In this document: piece after piece, positions 2,613-9,250 of the stretch
Numbering within the stretch: the first letter of the stretch is position 1
Layout: every line of letters starts with the position of its first letter
From: Candidatus Kerfeldbacteria bacterium
GTDB taxonomy: Bacteria; Patescibacteriota; Patescibacteriia; SBBC01
Length of the DNA: 12,818 bases
NCBI GenBank assembly: GCA_903854795.1
Contig: CAINXF010000019.1
Coordinates: 1 to 12,818, forward strand
Reading direction: 5' to 3'
Notes under the pieces: generated by a model
Databases searched by the model: none
What the model was told of the DNA's origin: nothing
Seen by the model: the letters and a program-made list of their open reading frames with translations, nothing else
Translations under genes and position numbers: made by a program

Positions 2613-3644
2613 GTGCCACGAATTCGCGCCGTCATCGCCGACCTCCGGGTAGTCACGCCGACCGTCATCGAGCTCTCCGTCGTTCGAGAAGGCGGTGGCG
2701 TGTTTCCATATTTCGTCCCTGGCCAGTACTCGACCATTAGTGTACCGACATACCAGCGCCTTCGCGGTGCGCGCTCATTTTCGATCGCAAGTTCGCCGAA
2801 CGACCTTTCGACATTGAAGTTCGGGATACGCGTCCATGGCGACTACACGACCGCACTTCGCGGTGTCCGACGCGGCGACCGAGCAATCATCGGTGGACCG
2901 TATGGTTCATTTACGTTCGATCCGATCAGGGACACCTCGGTCGTGTTCATCGCTGGCGGGATCGGCATCACGCCGTTTATGAGCATGGCGCGTACGGCGG
3001 CCGCGCTCAATTTGCCGCATGATATGACACTGCTCTATAGTGTGCGCTCATTGAGCGACGCGCCGTATCTCGAGGAGCTTGATGTCATGCAGCGGGCGAA
3101 CCCACATCTTCATGTAGTCTACGCGGTATCGGATGGTCGCGTGCCAGATGCATCACGCACATACATACCAGGTAGGATTACGCGCGAGGTATTTTCACGT
3201 GCGGTCAATGAGCCCGGTAGCAAATCGTATTTTCTTTGTGGGCCACAGGGATTTATGAATTCGATGGTCGCAATGCTCCGCAGCAGCAGCGTTAGTCATG
3301 AGGCGATCCATATGGAAAAGTTCGCCGTGAGCTCGTCAGCAGTCGTCGAACGTGGATCCATCGTTCCGAAGATCGCGTTTGCGGCGTGGGGTACCGCGCT
3401 TGCCTTGGTGTTCGGCGTCATCGTTCGGATCGAGACCGCGAAACGTACGGCGAACGCCGCGGCGACGTCAATCCCGAACGACTCTTCGCCGATCGTGAAT
3501 ACCTCGCCGACGCAGGGCCAGACCGACACCTCGACAGGTACCACGTCGAATAGTGGCAGCACGACCGTGACACCGACGCCGGCCCAGACGTACACGCCGC
3601 CGCAGACGTATTACCGCGTCGCACCGCGTACGTCCGTGTCCTAG
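2613..3644 (+). CDS. Membrane-anchored FNR-like FAD/NAD(P)H oxidoreductase with an extracytoplasmic Thr/Ser/Pro tail
   Basis: A 343-residue protein in the ferredoxin-NADP reductase family. It would take electrons from NAD(P)H onto FAD. Visible motifs: PGQY (36-39) and the FAD-binding R54-S-F-S57 in the beta-barrel domain; G115-G-I-G-I-T-P121 for pyridine-nucleotide binding; and C209-G-P-Q-G-F-M215 near the end of the NAD(P) domain. Unusually, the catalytic part is followed by one membrane helix (about 252-271) with R272 and K277-R278 after it, and a low-complexity Thr/Ser/Pro tail of about 70 residues (about 275-343). No 2Fe-2S cysteine cluster is present. The domain must be cytoplasmic to meet NAD(P)H, so the tail should lie outside, although the basic residues after the helix argue mildly against this. 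The GTG start is supported by AAGGAAA about 9 nt upstream. The next gene begins 8 bp after its stop, and the membrane heme protein two genes on is the likely electron acceptor. The tail carries D305-T-S-T-G-T-T311, close to an ApbE flavinylation motif. Confidence 0.88.
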   Translation: MPRIRAVIADLRVVTPTVIELSVVREGGGVFPYFVPGQYSTISVPTYQRLRGARSFSIASSPNDLSTLKFGIRVHGDYTTALRGVRRGDRAIIGGPYGSFTFDPIRDTSVVFIAGGIGITPFMSMARTAAALNLPHDMTLLYSVRSLSDAPYLEELDVMQRANPHLHVVYAVSDGRVPDASRTYIPGRITREVFSRAVNEPGSKSYFLCGPQGFMNSMVAMLRSSSVSHEAIHMEKFAVSSSAVVERGSIVPKIAFAAWGTALALVFGVIVRIETAKRTANAAATSIPNDSSPIVNTSPTQGQTDTSTGTTSNSGSTTVTPTPAQTYTPPQTYYRVAPRTSVS

Positions 3645-3652
3645 ATATCTCA

Positions 3653-4588
3653 ATGACTACCGTCACTAATCGTTTTGCGGCGTTGGGTACCACTGTTGAA
3701 GGTGGGTTTCGTGCGGAGGAACGCGATGGAGCCATGTTGTGGAATGTTGTGAAAGAAAAGGTTACTCTTTTCGAACAGAAATTCAGCCGCTTCATCCCGA
3801 CATCGGAACTATCAGTACTCAATGCGCACGCGGGTACGCCAATAAAGGTGAGCCTGGCGATGCTCGCGATGCTCGACGCGGCACGTCGCGCGTTCGACAC
3901 GACCGGTGGACTCGTTGATCCGACGGTCGGCGGAGCGTTGATGGCGGTCGGCTACGACGGTCCCTTCGATTCGCTCCGTGACCGGCCAGAGTCGTCAAAG
4001 AGCGGCACGTCGCCTTTGGCCAGTTTCGACATGGTACATATCGATCAGGAGCGGTTGGTAGTGACGGTTCCTGTGGGTGTGACGCTTGATTTCGGCGGTA
4101 TCGGCAAAGGGTATTTGTTGGACATGTTACGACCGGACATCGAAGCCTGTACTTCAGATTATTGGTTGTCGCTCGGTGGCGATCTGATCGTCGCCGGCAC
4201 TGACGAGCAGGGGAACGCATGGCAGATCGGCGTGCAGGATCCCTCTGCGCTCGATCAAGATCTTGGCGCTTTGGCGTTGCCTGAGGGTCGATGGGGTGTT
4301 GCCACTTCCGGAACGACGAAGCGACGTGGTGTCGTCGCAGGTATCCCATGGCACCACTTGATTGATCCCCACACTGGCGCGCCGTCGATGACGAATATTG
4401 CGCACGCCACGGTTATTGCACTGACCGCACTCGATGCGGACGTCGCGGCGAAGCGAGTGTTACTCGGTGGATTTGACGAAGGTATTGTATGGGCGCGCTT
4501 GCATGGGTATGATGCGGTGGTGATTACTACCGATGGACAGCTGATCACTACGACGAATTCGCTTTTGAGGAGCAAGGTTACTGTATGA
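3653..4588 (+). CDS. apbE: ApbE-family FAD:protein FMN transferase
   Basis: A 311-residue protein matching ApbE (flavin transferase) throughout. This enzyme splits FAD and attaches FMN to a Ser/Thr of a target protein, using Mg2+. Diagnostic segments: F44-S-R-F near the N-terminus, L145-D-F-G-G-I-G-K-G-Y154 (family LDLGGIAKGY), S173-L-G-G-D177, A217-T-S-G-T-T-K-R-R225, and H235-L-I-D-P-H-T-G-A-P244. A metal-binding Asp is expected in the T-A-D-A-like segment near 258-264 (A-L-D-A-D), which is slightly divergent. Length fits the family core. Many ApbE proteins are exported lipoproteins, but no signal peptide or lipobox is visible and no earlier in-frame start exists, so this one looks cytoplasmic. 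It starts 8 bp after the reductase stop and overlaps the next gene by 4 bp (ATGA), so the three genes form one operon. It has no recognisable FMN_bind-domain target in the window; the reductase tail is the best candidate. Confidence 0.92.
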   Translation: MTTVTNRFAALGTTVEGGFRAEERDGAMLWNVVKEKVTLFEQKFSRFIPTSELSVLNAHAGTPIKVSLAMLAMLDAARRAFDTTGGLVDPTVGGALMAVGYDGPFDSLRDRPESSKSGTSPLASFDMVHIDQERLVVTVPVGVTLDFGGIGKGYLLDMLRPDIEACTSDYWLSLGGDLIVAGTDEQGNAWQIGVQDPSALDQDLGALALPEGRWGVATSGTTKRRGVVAGIPWHHLIDPHTGAPSMTNIAHATVIALTALDADVAAKRVLLGGFDEGIVWARLHGYDAVVITTDGQLITTTNSLLRSKVTV

Positions 4589-5457
4589 CACGACTACGAT
4601 CCACGTTTTTTGTCGCGGTATTCCTTTCGCTCGCGTTCGTCGTGGCGGTACCGTTCGTGCGCGCCGAGACGGAACACGAGAACGAATCCGGTGATGACCA
4701 GGGTCGTACCGCGACGACCTACCAATTGGTGACCGTGCCAGGTAGTACGTCCGTGAGCGCACCATCTGTGCCGGTGACCACGACCACTCCAACGCCTCAG
4801 GTTTCAACAACATCCACGAGCGTCTCGGTGGCGCAGGCTACGTCGTCTGCACCGATCGTCGTCCAGACAACACCGGTTGCGACGCCATTCCCTTGGGCGT
4901 GGACCGTGACAAGGTCGGCAGGCATTGCCTCGTTCTTGTTGCTCGGTCTTCTCACGATCACCGGTATGTTATTGACAACAGGTCTTCTCTACCGGATGTT
5001 CTCACCTGCGACGGCGTGGTCGGTCCATCGTGCCATCGCGTCCGTACTGCTGTTCTCGGTGATGGCCCACGTAGGGTCGATCCTTTTTGACTCGTTTCTC
5101 GGACTTCATTTCTTTGACCTGTTCATCCCGTTCATCTCGCCGTACCGGCCGTTGCTCGTCACATTGGGCATCGGTGGTTTCTATCTGCTGCTGTTGGTTC
5201 TGGCTAGCTCGCTCTACACAATGAACTCCTATGCCAAGTTCTGGCGTACCGTCCATTTCTTCGCATTTCCCATGTTCATTTTCATCTTCCTGCACGGCGT
5301 ATTGATCGGTACCGATACGAAGCAGCCCTGGATGGTGGCGTTATACTGGGGGATCGGCGTGGCAGTCGCCGCGAGCATCATGTACCGAATGGTGTGGAAA
5401 TACCGGAATCCGGTGCTACGCACGACGGTCCGCAGGGTCGCGGGTCGTGTGCGGTAA
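4585..5457 (+). CDS. Ferric-reductase/NOX-like transmembrane bis-heme protein
   Basis: A 290-residue membrane protein. Residues 1-27 are a signal peptide ending V-R-A, followed by an acidic stretch and a Thr/Ser/Pro/Val-rich linker (about 41-103) outside the cell. Five membrane helices follow (about 109-135, 145-168, 187-211, 219-243 and 247-268), then a strongly basic C-terminal tail, consistent with an internal C-terminus. H148 and H162 lie on the second helix and H224 and H237 on the fourth. The spacings of 14 and 13 residues are those of the four heme-ligating histidines in the NADPH-oxidase/ferric reductase family, so two b-type hemes spanning the membrane are expected. The dehydrogenase domain usually fused to this unit is absent and is supplied by the first gene of the operon. 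The start overlaps the apbE stop by 4 bp, implying translational coupling. Alternatives are an MsrQ (YedZ)-like heme protein, but no MsrP partner is present. Terminal acceptor (Fe3+, O2, other) unknown. Confidence 0.82.
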   Translation: MTRLRSTFFVAVFLSLAFVVAVPFVRAETEHENESGDDQGRTATTYQLVTVPGSTSVSAPSVPVTTTTPTPQVSTTSTSVSVAQATSSAPIVVQTTPVATPFPWAWTVTRSAGIASFLLLGLLTITGMLLTTGLLYRMFSPATAWSVHRAIASVLLFSVMAHVGSILFDSFLGLHFFDLFIPFISPYRPLLVTLGIGGFYLLLLVLASSLYTMNSYAKFWRTVHFFAFPMFIFIFLHGVLIGTDTKQPWMVALYWGIGVAVAASIMYRMVWKYRNPVLRTTVRRVAGRVR

Positions 5458-5623: not shown

Positions 5624-5926
5624 ATGACTACCGCCATGCTTTCCGCGCTCCGTGCCCGTCTTAAGTCACCGTCGTTCAATGATAGCCACCAACTACTCCG
5701 TACCGTGAGCGGTACGAGTCGTTTCAAGATACTTACGATGCTCCAGTTATCGCCCGCCGGTCTCACCCCGACCGACATCGCAAGGGTGTTGAACGTGTCG
5801 CTTTCTCGCGTGTCGCACCAACTGCGGATCCTGCGGGATCACCGTCTCGTCATGACGAACGAAGGATCGCGCGAGGTGGTCTACCGCATCGCGCCGAACA
5901 AGGTCGTACGGCAGCTCCTGCGTTGA
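5624..5926 (+). CDS. ArsR-like winged-helix transcriptional regulator
   Basis: A 100-residue protein whose middle is a winged helix-turn-helix: helices around residues 31-41, 47-55 and the recognition helix near 59-70 (S-L-S-R-V-S-H-Q-L-R-I-L), followed by a beta-wing (74-89) with T-N-E-G-S-R-E-V-V-Y-R-I. This is the ArsR/SmtB fold. The cysteines of metal-sensing ArsR proteins are absent (there is no Cys at all), so it is unlikely to sense thiophilic metals. Length is usual for the family. No Shine-Dalgarno precedes the ATG at 5624; ATG 5636 is an alternative. It lies between the redox operon and a second, PAS-fused regulator of the same fold, so it may control either neighbour. Confidence 0.8.
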   Translation: MTTAMLSALRARLKSPSFNDSHQLLRTVSGTSRFKILTMLQLSPAGLTPTDIARVLNVSLSRVSHQLRILRDHRLVMTNEGSREVVYRIAPNKVVRQLLR

Positions 5927-6018: not shown

Positions 6019-6666
6019 ATGAAAAAAGTGTTGTATAAAAGGGTGTTTGGTACGCTCGCTAATGATGTCCGTTTGGACATCCTTATTGCGTTGCGGTCGG
6101 GGAGGAAGAACGTCAATGAACTGGCACGTGAGTTGAAGAACGATCAAAGCGCGGTCTCGCATGGGCTCACACGTCTCACGCGGGATGGCCTCGTGCTCGC
6201 GACGACGCAGGGACGTTTCCGCTACTACAGTTTGCGGAGCGGAAGGTTTGAAATGCTCATGAACGTCATCGGCCAATTCGTCGGCGAACATTCGTCCCGT
6301 GCGGCGCACGCAGGCGCATCTGACACCCAGCGACTCTATCGCATGGTTGACTCGTTCCCACATGCGGTCATGGTCGAGAGCGACGGGAAGATCGCCTATC
6401 TGAACCGGGCGGGCGTTGCCATGTTCGGCGCATCCTCCGCGTTCGATCTGATCGGACGCGAGGTGCTTTCCCTTGTGACGCCACGGTCACGGTCGGTGGT
6501 CAAGGAGCGTATAATGAGGCTGCGACATGGCGCCGAATCAAATCCATTGCTCAAGGAAGAGTGGTTTCGATTCGATGGGACGCGGTTTTCCGCTACGGTA
6601 AGCTCATCGCGGTATCGCTTGAATAAGCGTGTGGGCGCGATCGCCGTGATCCGCTCGATGACCTAA
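6019..6666 (+). CDS. ArsR-like winged-helix regulator fused to a PAS sensor domain
   Basis: A 215-residue one-component regulator. Residues 5-75 are a winged helix: R8-V-F-G-T-L-A-N-D-V-R-L-D-I-L-I-A-L is the typical ArsR first segment, the recognition helix is near 42-55 (D-Q-S-A-V-S-H-G-L-T-R-L), and G65-R-F-R-Y-Y-S-L ends the wing. After a linker, residues about 106-215 read as a PAS domain: D122-G-K-I-A-Y-L-N-R-A (family D-G-x-I-x-x-x-N-x-A), F136-G, L144-I-G-R, later F185-D-G-T and a final A-V-I-R-S-M-T, like the PAS ending V-I-R-D-I-T. No kinase or other output domain is present, so the PAS signal must act directly on DNA binding. PAS domains often bind flavin, heme or small ligands; with a flavin/heme operon next door, redox sensing is plausible but unproven. 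It has its own strong promoter and Shine-Dalgarno. Confidence 0.85.
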   Translation: MKKVLYKRVFGTLANDVRLDILIALRSGRKNVNELARELKNDQSAVSHGLTRLTRDGLVLATTQGRFRYYSLRSGRFEMLMNVIGQFVGEHSSRAAHAGASDTQRLYRMVDSFPHAVMVESDGKIAYLNRAGVAMFGASSAFDLIGREVLSLVTPRSRSVVKERIMRLRHGAESNPLLKEEWFRFDGTRFSATVSSSRYRLNKRVGAIAVIRSMT

Positions 6667-6714
6667 CACAAGGTCGTGTAGGACATGGGGTAGCCATATA
6701 CCGCTTTTTTTCGC

Positions 6715-6727
6715 TATACTGAAGGAC
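6715..6727 (+). promoter_or_regulatory. -10 element and closely set start of the P-type ATPase gene
   Basis: TATACT (6715-6720) is a good -10, but no clear -35 is found (TAGCCA at 18 bp). The predicted start near 6727 is at the ATG (6728), so the message could be leaderless. GAAGGA (6721-6726) is only 1-2 nt from the ATG, too near for a normal Shine-Dalgarno. A seven-T run at 6705-6711 follows a weak 4 bp stem (GGTA/TACC) and could weakly end the preceding transcript. Confidence 0.35.
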
Positions 6728-9250
6728 ATGCACGACACCGTCGCTCCCGCAGGGACACTCCAAGGTTTGTCGCCGTCAGAGGCGGCGTCTCGGTTCGTGC
6801 GATTCGGCCCGAACGAGGTCGCGACCAAGAAACGCATGCGGCCGATCGTCGCGTTTATCCGTAAGTTTAATAGCCCGCTCCTCTGGATACTGATCGGCGC
6901 GGCGACAATATCGATCTTCGTGGGCGAGGAAACGAACGCGTTCATCCTTGTCGTTATGATACTGATTTCGGTCGTGATCGATTTCGTGAACTCATATCGA
7001 TCCGAACGCGCGGTCGAAGCGCTCATTGCGAAGGTCGTGACGAAGACGACGGTGATCCGCGGCGGCAGTCGGCACGAGGTGCCACTCACGTCGATCGTCC
7101 CGGGTGACGTCGTAGTCCTTGCTGCAGGCAACGTCGTACCGGCTGATGGGTTTCTGCTCGTAGGCAAGGACGTCTTCGCCAATGAATCATCGCTCACCGG
7201 CGAATCGCTTCCGGTCGAGAAAATCCACGGCCAGCGCGCCGCGGGGGACACGCAGCTCACCACGCTCCAAAAGGACGCGCTGTTCATGGGCACGAGCATC
7301 GTCACCGGCGAGGCGACCATGCAGGTCGTCATGACTGGCGCGCGGACCGCCTTCGGGAAGATCGCTGAACGTTTAAGCGGCGAGGAGCAGTTAACCGACT
7401 TCGAGAAGAGTATCCGGCAGTTCAGCATCTTCCTGATGAAGGTCACCGTCATCATGGTGGTGATTGTGTTCGTCGCGTCGATCCTGAACCCGTTCGCGCA
7501 CCAACGGTTGATCGATTCGTTTATTTTCGCGATCGCGATCGCGATTGGTCTCACGCCTGAGCTCTTGCCGGTCATCATCACCGTTTCGCTTTCCCGTGGC
7601 GCCGTCCGTATGGCGCAGAAGCAGGTGATCGTGAAACATCTTCCCGCGATCCAGAATTTCGGACGGATGGATGTGCTCTGCACGGACAAGACCGGCACAT
7701 TGACCGAGAACCGCATTTCCGTCGTGAAGTATGTCGATGGAAGTGGTGCCATCTCCGACGAGTCACTTCGCACGGCATTCCTGAACAGTGCGTATCACAC
7801 GGGCGTCGCGAACACGCTCGACCATGCGATTCGAACCTACCGTTCGTGGGATCTCGGCACGTCGCGTAAGATCGACGAGATCCCGTTTGATTTCGAGCGT
7901 CGGCGCGATTCCATGATCGTCGACGACAATGGCGCGCGTGTCATCGTGACGAAGGGTGCGCCTGAGGCGGTCTTCCCGATCTGCACACAGTACCGGGCAA
8001 AGGGTACCGACGTACCGTTTGATGAGGCTCGGAAAAAGATCGCACAGGACGAGTTCATATCGTTGAGCAACGAAGGCTACAAGGTCCTGGCCGTGGCATC
8101 GAGTACCGTACCAATCAAAGCGACGCTCTACGAAAAAGAGGACGAGCGCGACCTGACGTTCGTCGGCTACATCGCGTTCCTTGACCCCCCGAAGAAGACT
8201 GCGCAGGAGGCGATCCGTGACCTCGAGGACTATGGCATCGAGGTGAAGATCCTCACCGGCGACAGTGCCGTACTGACGCAGAAGATCTGCGGTGAGCTGA
8301 AGATCCCCACGAAGGGCATCATGACCGGCGACGAGCTTGCCGCGCTCAAGGACGATGAGTGGCACGACGAGGTACTCAACCACACCGTGTTCGCGCGGAT
8401 CGACCCCGAGCAGAAGGAACGTATCATTGTGGCACTCCAAAAGGCGGGTAAGGTCGTCGGGTTCATGGGCGACGGCATCAACGACGCGCCGGCGCTCAAG
8501 GCCGCCGATGTCGGTGTGTCGGTCAGCAACGCGGTTGACGTCGCAAAGGAGACCGCTGACATCATCCTCCAACGTCGAAGTCTCCGCGTGTTGCGTGACG
8601 GCGTGATCGAGGGTCGGCGGACCTTCCAGAACGCGTTGAAGTACATCGAGATGGGGTTGAGCTCGAACTTCGGCAACATGTTTTCGATGATGGTCGCGGC
8701 ATCGTTCCTACCGTTCCTGCCGATGTTGCCGGCGCAGATCCTGTTGAACAACATCATGTACGACAGTTCGCAGCTCACACTTTCGTCCGACTCGGTCGAC
8801 GAGGAGGACGTGAGGAGGCCGACCGTGTGGAACATAAAGTTCATCAGACGGTTCATGCTCACGTTCGGTCCGATCAGCTCGTTGTTTGACTTCGCAACGT
8901 TTGGACTCATGTGGGTGTACTTTCATGACACCGCATCGAAGTTCCAGACCGGCTGGTTCATCGAATCCATCGCCACGCAGGTGTTCGTCATCTACGTGAT
9001 CAGGACGCGAAAGATCCCATTCCTCGAGAGCCGACCGAGCCTCGTGCTCATGGCGAACACGTTGCTCGTCGTGCTCGCCGCGTGGATCCTGCCGTTCACG
9101 CCGATCGGTTCGTATTTCCATCTGTCACCGTTACCGATGTTCATCCTCGCGATTCTGTTCGGCTACATCTTGGTCTACCTCGGTCTCGTGCAGGGCGCGA
9201 AGCGTTGGTTCTATCGGAAATACCGGACACACGCGGTAGTCGCTGCGTGA
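6728..9250 (+). CDS. mgtA: MgtA-type P-type ATPase (Mg2+ importer family, type IIIB)
   Basis: An 840-residue membrane pump, a little shorter than typical MgtA. The N-terminal cation-ATPase segment begins G13-L-S-P-S-E-A-A with G27-P-N. Helix pairs lie near 50-65 and 70-88. The actuator domain carries T157-G-E-S160, the phosphorylated aspartate is D320 in D-K-T-G-T-L-T, and the hinge is G581-D-G-I-N-D586. Before D320 the segment G-L-T-P-E-L-L-P-V-I-I and V-K-H-L-P-A-I-Q-N-F-G is characteristic of MgtA/MgtB, as are S-S-N-F-G-N-M-F-S-M-M and N-N-I-M-Y-D-S-S-Q in the C-terminal membrane part. Heavy-metal CxxC/CPC motifs are absent. Family members move Mg2+ inward. No mgtC, Mg riboswitch-like leader or regulator was recognised next to it; the leader is essentially absent. 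Substrate assignment is by family resemblance, not proven. Confidence 0.9.
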   Translation: MHDTVAPAGTLQGLSPSEAASRFVRFGPNEVATKKRMRPIVAFIRKFNSPLLWILIGAATISIFVGEETNAFILVVMILISVVIDFVNSYRSERAVEALIAKVVTKTTVIRGGSRHEVPLTSIVPGDVVVLAAGNVVPADGFLLVGKDVFANESSLTGESLPVEKIHGQRAAGDTQLTTLQKDALFMGTSIVTGEATMQVVMTGARTAFGKIAERLSGEEQLTDFEKSIRQFSIFLMKVTVIMVVIVFVASILNPFAHQRLIDSFIFAIAIAIGLTPELLPVIITVSLSRGAVRMAQKQVIVKHLPAIQNFGRMDVLCTDKTGTLTENRISVVKYVDGSGAISDESLRTAFLNSAYHTGVANTLDHAIRTYRSWDLGTSRKIDEIPFDFERRRDSMIVDDNGARVIVTKGAPEAVFPICTQYRAKGTDVPFDEARKKIAQDEFISLSNEGYKVLAVASSTVPIKATLYEKEDERDLTFVGYIAFLDPPKKTAQEAIRDLEDYGIEVKILTGDSAVLTQKICGELKIPTKGIMTGDELAALKDDEWHDEVLNHTVFARIDPEQKERIIVALQKAGKVVGFMGDGINDAPALKAADVGVSVSNAVDVAKETADIILQRRSLRVLRDGVIEGRRTFQNALKYIEMGLSSNFGNMFSMMVAASFLPFLPMLPAQILLNNIMYDSSQLTLSSDSVDEEDVRRPTVWNIKFIRRFMLTFGPISSLFDFATFGLMWVYFHDTASKFQTGWFIESIATQVFVIYVIRTRKIPFLESRPSLVLMANTLLVVLAAWILPFTPIGSYFHLSPLPMFILAILFGYILVYLGLVQGAKRWFYRKYRTHAVVAA

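Follow-up and report, generated by a model that had tools for sequence, protein, structure and literature searches.

The described systems closest to the locus reported here are the MsrQ-like flavinylation systems, in which a PF01794-type heme protein lies beside apbE together with a PF00175 NAD-binding domain, and for which electron export from NAD(P)H has been proposed (Meheust et al. 2021, PMC8238504). According to the excerpts of that report, and statements on the literature below likewise refer to excerpts of the cited papers, these systems typically include a gene for a flavin mononucleotide (FMN)-binding domain and often carry the NAD domain C-terminally on the same chain. MsrQ (YedZ) is a bacterial ferric-reductase-domain protein that forms a separate chain, for which the flavin reductase Fre "could be" the donor (PMC5676040); its electrons go to MsrP, and it lacks the first heme histidine, which is replaced by Arg in YedZ/STEAP proteins (Zhang 2013, PMC3591440). 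In SpNOX (8qta, 8qt6), the ferric reductase and dehydrogenase (DH) domains are fused on one chain (PMC5676040). Predicted ApbE sites on an unstructured C-terminal extension have been published for FMN_red proteins, which belong to another family, are mostly from Firmicutes and carry a canonical-like motif (PMC11334425). Here, we describe a three-gene unit on the forward strand of a 12,818-base contig (CAINXF010000019.1, analyzed whole and hereafter called the window) from a Candidatus Kerfeldbacteria genome of 1,071,605 bases in 211 contigs. The unit encodes an FNR-like reductase (FNR), an ApbE-type transferase and a membrane ferric-reductase-domain protein (FRD).

Open reading frames (ORFs) and Pfam matches in the window establish that the unit is real and that its genes are densely packed in the order FNR, ApbE, FRD, as had been read from the sequence in the original prediction. 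Its features are as follows, with hydropathy, predicted structures (confidence given as the predicted local distance difference test, pLDDT) and homologue alignments as their basis.

2613..3644, + strand: FNR-like reductase for NAD(P)H and flavin adenine dinucleotide (FAD), 343 amino acids, with the FAD/NAD domain at residues 1-240.
3369..3425, + strand: hydrophobic helix of FNR, residues 253-271, a probable membrane anchor with its N-terminal side inside (hydropathy 1.97; model helix 250-284).
3426..3641, + strand: Thr/Ser/Pro-rich tail of FNR, residues 272-343 (low pLDDT from about residue 281; homologue alignment).
3624..3641, + strand: terminal hexapeptide PRTSVS of FNR (P-x-[TS]-x-x-S-COOH), a candidate site for flavinylation by ApbE or for docking (present in 79 of 120 listed homologues).
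3653..4588, + strand: ApbE-type FAD:protein FMN transferase with an N-terminus that is not signal-like (PF02424, 164.4 bits).
4451..4453, + strand: Lys267 of ApbE at position D+4, aligned with Thr in the solved enzymes 7esa and 4xdt.
4585..5457, + strand: FRD, 290 amino acids, predicted to hold two hemes.
4603..4659, + strand: N-terminal hydrophobic signal or signal-anchor of FRD, residues 7-25 (hydropathy 2.58; helix 2-21).
4666..4698, + strand: acidic patch of FRD, residues 28-38, before a Thr/Pro-rich linker and predicted to lie outside (homologue alignment).
5026..5028, + strand: H148 of FRD, putative inner heme ligand (invariant in 41 sequences).
5068..5070, + strand: H162 of FRD, putative outer heme ligand (alignment of 41 sequences).
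5254..5256, + strand: H224 of FRD, putative inner heme ligand (same alignment).
5293..5295, + strand: H237 of FRD, putative outer heme ligand (same alignment).

The three genes travel together. Among 57 fetched loci with an ApbE of the operon type, both neighbors are present in 47, always as FNR-ApbE-FRD along a single strand and with median gaps of -1 and -4 bp. Searches with FRD or FNR led to some of the 57 loci; 38 others (L174-L211) were reached through ApbE alone, and of these 30 are complete and three are cut by a contig end. Ten loci are incomplete, four of them cut by contig ends (L023, L185, L205 and L211). A further locus, L030 (2441-3399), has ApbE in two ORFs and an FRD with no FNR domain nearby, and the helix-plus-tail part of FNR forms its own gene. 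The counts include the near-copies L083/L193, L085/L209 and L028/L048; L043-L046 and L049 duplicate other loci and are not counted, and one genome with an ApbE match (G955) is outside the set. Unlinked homologues had been named beforehand as the outcome that would speak against the prediction, and co-occurrence largely held. FRD matches at E 0.001 occur in 21 of 380 genomes of the window's class, 11 of which (its own included) fall below 1e-30; the named relatives are from Kerfeldbacteria and Falkowbacteria, with two weaker matches in Acidimicrobiia. A second group is found in another class of the phylum, where 34 of 372 genomes match one of its ApbEs (E 1e-20). Some listed FNR homologues bear the names Saccharibacteria or Saccharimonadales, and from these names the second class is probably theirs.

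The FRD consists of a hydrophobic signal, an acidic stretch, the Thr/Pro-rich linker and then five long helical stretches that hold H148/H162 and H224/H237. The 14- and 13-residue spacing of these histidines, noted at the outset as that of NADPH oxidase (NOX) and ferric reductase heme ligands, matches NOX2; all four are invariant in 41 aligned sequences, and both pairs are present in the FRDs of all 47 complete loci. Among PDB sequences the FRD profile matched only STEAP4, at E 0.014, and structures were therefore compared. The predicted FRD fold resembles the cores of SpNOX, NOX5, DUOX and NOX2, with SpNOX as the best match, and would place the protein in the NADPH oxidase/ferric reductase domain superfamily. 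The FNR carries FAD_binding_6 and NAD_binding_1 domains in an FNR fold, as in FNR-type flavin reductases, and its model resembles the DH domain of SpNOX as well as NqrF, so that both halves of the pair are NOX-like in predicted fold, as had been anticipated. The dehydrogenase also has the helix of its own that had been claimed for it. Among the 120 FNR homologues listed (the best of 2,144 matches, with the query counted in), 116 have this helix, with a mean net flank charge of +1.37 before and +0.73 after it. The tail that follows it in these 116 runs to 48-229 residues (median 88) and varies in both length and sequence.

Set beside the described systems, the operon shares with SpNOX a four-histidine FRD fold and an FNR-type DH domain, both of which align structurally, but FRD and dehydrogenase are here two ORFs with ApbE between them. 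To our knowledge, neither ApbE nor the tail is part of SpNOX. The operon resembles MsrQ with Fre in placing FRD and flavin reductase on separate polypeptides, and differs in that the first histidine, H148, is present and invariant. Like the MsrQ-like flavinylation systems, it has an MsrQ-like gene in an apbE-associated cluster, with the reservation on PF01794 given below, but it has no FMN-binding domain protein, its ApbE is signal-less by hydropathy where theirs is extracytosolic (signal peptide or lipoprotein), and its FNR is separate, with a helix and a motif-bearing tail. It would work as those systems do and is probably a divergent relative of them, departing in two usual features. A further comparison is the Acidimicrobiales locus L051, where ApbE directly precedes a related FRD and the 3.1 kb contig has no match to the FNR profile. 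As first interpreted, a NOX- or FRD-like route for electrons across the membrane is divided between two genes that flank ApbE; this reading stands, and the export unit is well supported. The separateness of its FRD and FNR, put forward as the novelty, was already known from MsrQ/YedZ with its proposed donor Fre (PMC5676040). What is new is that two or more classes of the phylum have kept the unit, together with an orphan ApbE that has no signal-like start and a tail end under sharp conservation. The titles and abstracts searched, which comprised open-licence literature, did not describe this operon.

ApbE in the operon had also been taken to point to covalently bound FMN as an additional carrier. 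Its presence there does not demonstrate this: the profile scan found no PF04205 FMN_bind in the window's own genome, [ST]GA[ST] is rare, and the ApbE is not signal-like. The same genome has a single ApbE. FMN_bind was found in three of 14 other operon genomes, each time beside a second, shorter and different ApbE, and was absent from the remaining 11; the operon ApbE therefore probably has another substrate. The known acceptor motif is D-x-x-[S/T]-G-A-[S/T] (PMC12052999). In the window FNR tail, DTSTGTT comes near D-x-x-[ST]-G-A-[ST], and this candidate was rejected, as it is not kept in homologues. The core [ST]GA[ST] as a general acceptor was likewise discarded, being present in only 2/52 FNR, 4/50 FRD and 0/58 ApbE ORFs, with the four FRD cases representing the same stretch of related proteins. 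Since the ApbE of the operon has neither FMN_bind nor a conserved canonical site to act on, what is left is an unconventional acceptor.

The one conserved Ser/Thr feature found that is special to ApbE-linked FNRs is a terminal hydroxyl peptide. In 79 of the 120 listed FNR homologues the chain ends exactly in P-x-[TS]-x-x-S (type P), compared with a mean of 0.918 and a maximum of 4 when the last 50 residues were shuffled in 500 rounds. Another 23 end in C-x-[TS]-x-x-S-G...C (type C), which keeps an SG reminiscent of [ST]GA[ST]; the core [PC]-x-T-x-x-S can be aligned between the two types, and L198 (PMTCTSRGC) looks intermediate. Strict expressions were used, so that the near-matches P0079, P0094, P0165, P0134 and P0152 count as having neither motif. 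A third, acidic ending is seen in P0106, P0146, P0147 and P0151. In L029 (PTTKVS) and L030 (PRTTVS) a separate helix-plus-tail protein ends in the motif and the FNR itself lacks it. The motif is absent from all nine FNR matches outside ApbE operons in the fetched loci (L032, L033, L038, L039, L041, L087, L089 and the second FNRs of L084 and L088), which ties it to ApbE. A role as a general sorting signal was rejected on a scan of the window's own genome for the PRTxxS form, with the R position fixed: of 22 DNA matches on both strands (14 for the reversed pattern), FNR alone ends a long ORF, and the open stretches closed by the other matches are 94 codons long at most.

The ApbE itself has solved relatives in the PDB (7esa, 1vrm and 4xdt), and its PF02424 match, FAD-site motifs and HH[LI]IDP motif predict FMN transfer; the operon type mostly retains GKGY, GGD, ATSG and HH[LI]IDP. 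The hydroxyl-bearing Thr at D+4, which we take to be a Mg ligand, is replaced by Lys267 in the window and by Lys, Ser or once Gly across the operon type. ApbEs that accompany type P tails have Lys in 19 of 19 cases; with type C tails, 22 of 23 were readable, giving Ser in 21 and Gly in one (L177); with the eight other tails, there are six Lys and two Ser. The protein begins directly with its domain and is not signal-like by hydropathy (0.37 at the N-terminus in the window; at most 1.24 in 56 of the 57 loci and 1.79 in L187, the L030 and L211 rows having no true N-terminus). A side observation concerns several loci in the L100-L118 range, which hold another group of ApbEs of about 290-300 amino acids, often with CGSAGNR for ATSG and mostly with Thr at D+4; this CGSAGNR-type group is common in the window's class.

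We consider it somewhat probable that the operon is a transmembrane electron-export unit whose ApbE flavinylates an operon protein, likeliest at the end of the FNR tail. By analogy with the families concerned, NAD(P)H would reduce FAD on a cytosolic FNR held at the membrane by its helix, and FAD would hand single electrons to FRD, where they would cross from the inner heme (H148/H224) to the outer one (H162/H237) and so reach an acceptor outside the cell. The ApbE, co-produced without a signal peptide, would place FMN on an operon protein, for which the conserved hydroxyl-bearing end of FNR (P-x-[TS]-x-x-S or C-x-T-[TS]-x-S-G...C) is the likeliest candidate, and the flavinylated tail would act as a flexible tether carrying an extra flavin. 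Flavinylation of the tail is hypothesized. Its bolder form is offered tentatively: the extreme C-terminus (P-x-[TS]-x-x-S-COOH or C-x-T-[TS]-x-S-G-x-x-x-C) may be a new class of ApbE substrate, with FMN on a swinging tether as the last carrier of a compact three-gene chain, loaded by a signal-less ApbE that has Lys or Ser in place of the metal-binding Thr.

Several observations weigh against this account. The operon ApbE looks cytosolic and the FNR tail should lie outside, on the opposite side of the membrane, a conflict that may be circumvented if the tail is loaded before it is exported, if ApbE leaves the cytosol by an unusual route or if the tail never leaves it; positive residues follow the FNR helix as well as precede it. 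The type P tail lacks the G-A of the known acceptor motif, neither strict motif is present in 18 of the 120 listed homologues or in 8 of 50 FNRs beside ApbE, and the FMN_bind check spanned a minority of the operon genomes found through ApbE matches in the second class. The joint change of tail type and ApbE residue amounts to two changes on the FNR tree, from which L205 with its cut ApbE is absent, and one starred independent pair, and with so few it is a clue of no statistical weight and not a test. Linkage is not absolute, since L207 has FNR and ApbE without FRD, and L200, L203, L206 and L210 have a lone ApbE with neither FNR nor FRD nearby. In the window FRD, PF01794 scores below its curated cut-off (16.7 of 28 bits) and was missed in the own-genome scan, 14 of 47 listed FRD homologues carrying it, and the structural score of cytochrome b561 for FRD is similar to that of NOX5. 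Finally, the scheme names no acceptor outside the cell.

A rival reading keeps the same export unit with a different use of the tail, as a docking peptide for an extracytoplasmic partner, while ApbE serves another target or only makes FMN from FAD. The partner could be the N-terminus of FRD with its acidic patch or, in type C operons, the Ig-like Big_14 protein, whose association with that tail type agrees well with docking. Tail and partner would then both be outside, as the topology suggests, and the Lys that stands for the presumed metal ligand in type P ApbEs fits. Type C tails have two Cys, and a Big_14-like protein with conserved Cys lies beside FRD in 13 of 23 type C and 0 of 19 type P loci; FNR and FRD keep no canonical ApbE site, and [ST]GA[ST] is found in none of 16 Big_14-like and five extra proteins scanned. 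However, ApbE sits between both subunits in every complete locus and the motif is missing from all nine FNRs outside ApbE operons, and we regard docking as rather doubtful.

An assimilatory or dissimilatory ferric reductase, with the outer heme reducing Fe(III) bound near acidic or calcium-type extracytoplasmic segments, is compatible with the export unit and is a possible though not a favored choice of acceptor. Of the 28 closest FRDs, 24 have at least five Asp/Glu residues in the 50 positions that follow the signal, and PF18884 repeats, presumably TSP3, occur in P0029, with similar stretches in L026 and L028; such acidic patches are no proof of iron binding, and no iron transporter was found among the 13 window proteins in Pfam or NCBIfam scans. 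In favor of this reading, four residues after H162, by ungapped offset, the window FRD has Ile where NOX2 has His-119, one of the positions that probably mark superoxide makers versus presumptive metalloreductases (Zhang 2013, PMC3591440). The missing His-119 equivalent also counts against a bacterial NADPH oxidase that would convert oxygen to superoxide, whether to dispose of oxygen or to act against neighbors. The best structural match of FRD, SpNOX, is described as a bona fide NADPH oxidase (PMC5676040), but nothing in the same scans of the 13 proteins hints at oxygen use, and we consider this unlikely. Very improbable is an MsrPQ-like repair system in which the electrons would go to a methionine sulfoxide reductase in the periplasm: one source names the homologues P0008 and P0009 "methionine sulfoxide reductase heme-binding subunit" and the FRD/FNR split recalls MsrQ with Fre, but the scans found no MsrP-type protein in the window, and the window FRD has four histidines where YedZ/STEAP proteins carry Arg for the first.

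Published accounts of Patescibacteria describe cells that have no complete electron transport chain and depend on fermentation (PMC7507113), although oxidases are reported in some of them (PMC12577380). With a conserved export unit of three genes, such cells would have a sink for electrons. This unit was invisible to the flavinylation survey because ApbEs without a signal were removed there; orphan ApbEs remain in 4% of its dataset (PMC8238504). The tail end is a directly testable candidate for the missing ApbE substrate.

Related loci carry additional genes. In five (L026, L028, L029, L047 and L048) FNR and ApbE are 442-582 bp apart; in L026 and L028 the insert codes for a protein that has an acidic stretch and whose start resembles a signal, and in L029 for the helix-plus-tail protein. 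A membrane-anchored Ig-like (Big_14) protein with conserved Cys directly follows FRD in 16 loci (e.g. L082, 9464-10087), namely the 13 type C loci plus L182, L211 and L030; one of three such proteins scanned with Pfam passed the Big_14 cut-off. The window has neither an FNR-ApbE insert gene nor a Big_14-like protein. Beside the FNR-ApbE pair of L207, a cupredoxin-like protein (PF13473; 5938-6720) is a possible electron acceptor; a regular expression for cupredoxins matched none of 303 neighbor ORFs and was insensitive, missing even this protein. By eye, the lone ApbE of L206 adjoins ATP synthase genes.

In the window, a signal-bearing protein with six CarboxypepD_reg-like stretches (559-2403, - strand) is divergent from the operon. 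An ArsR-type regulator is encoded at 5624-5926, followed at 6019-6666 by an ArsR-type helix-turn-helix fused to a PAS domain. PAS domains are able to sense redox or heme, and a functional tie between this protein and the operon is possible. At 6728-9250, 1.3 kb past the downstream end of the operon, lies a gene for a magnesium-type P-type ATPase; in L047 the gene for a related ATPase (6554-9085) adjoins the operon on the opposite strand.

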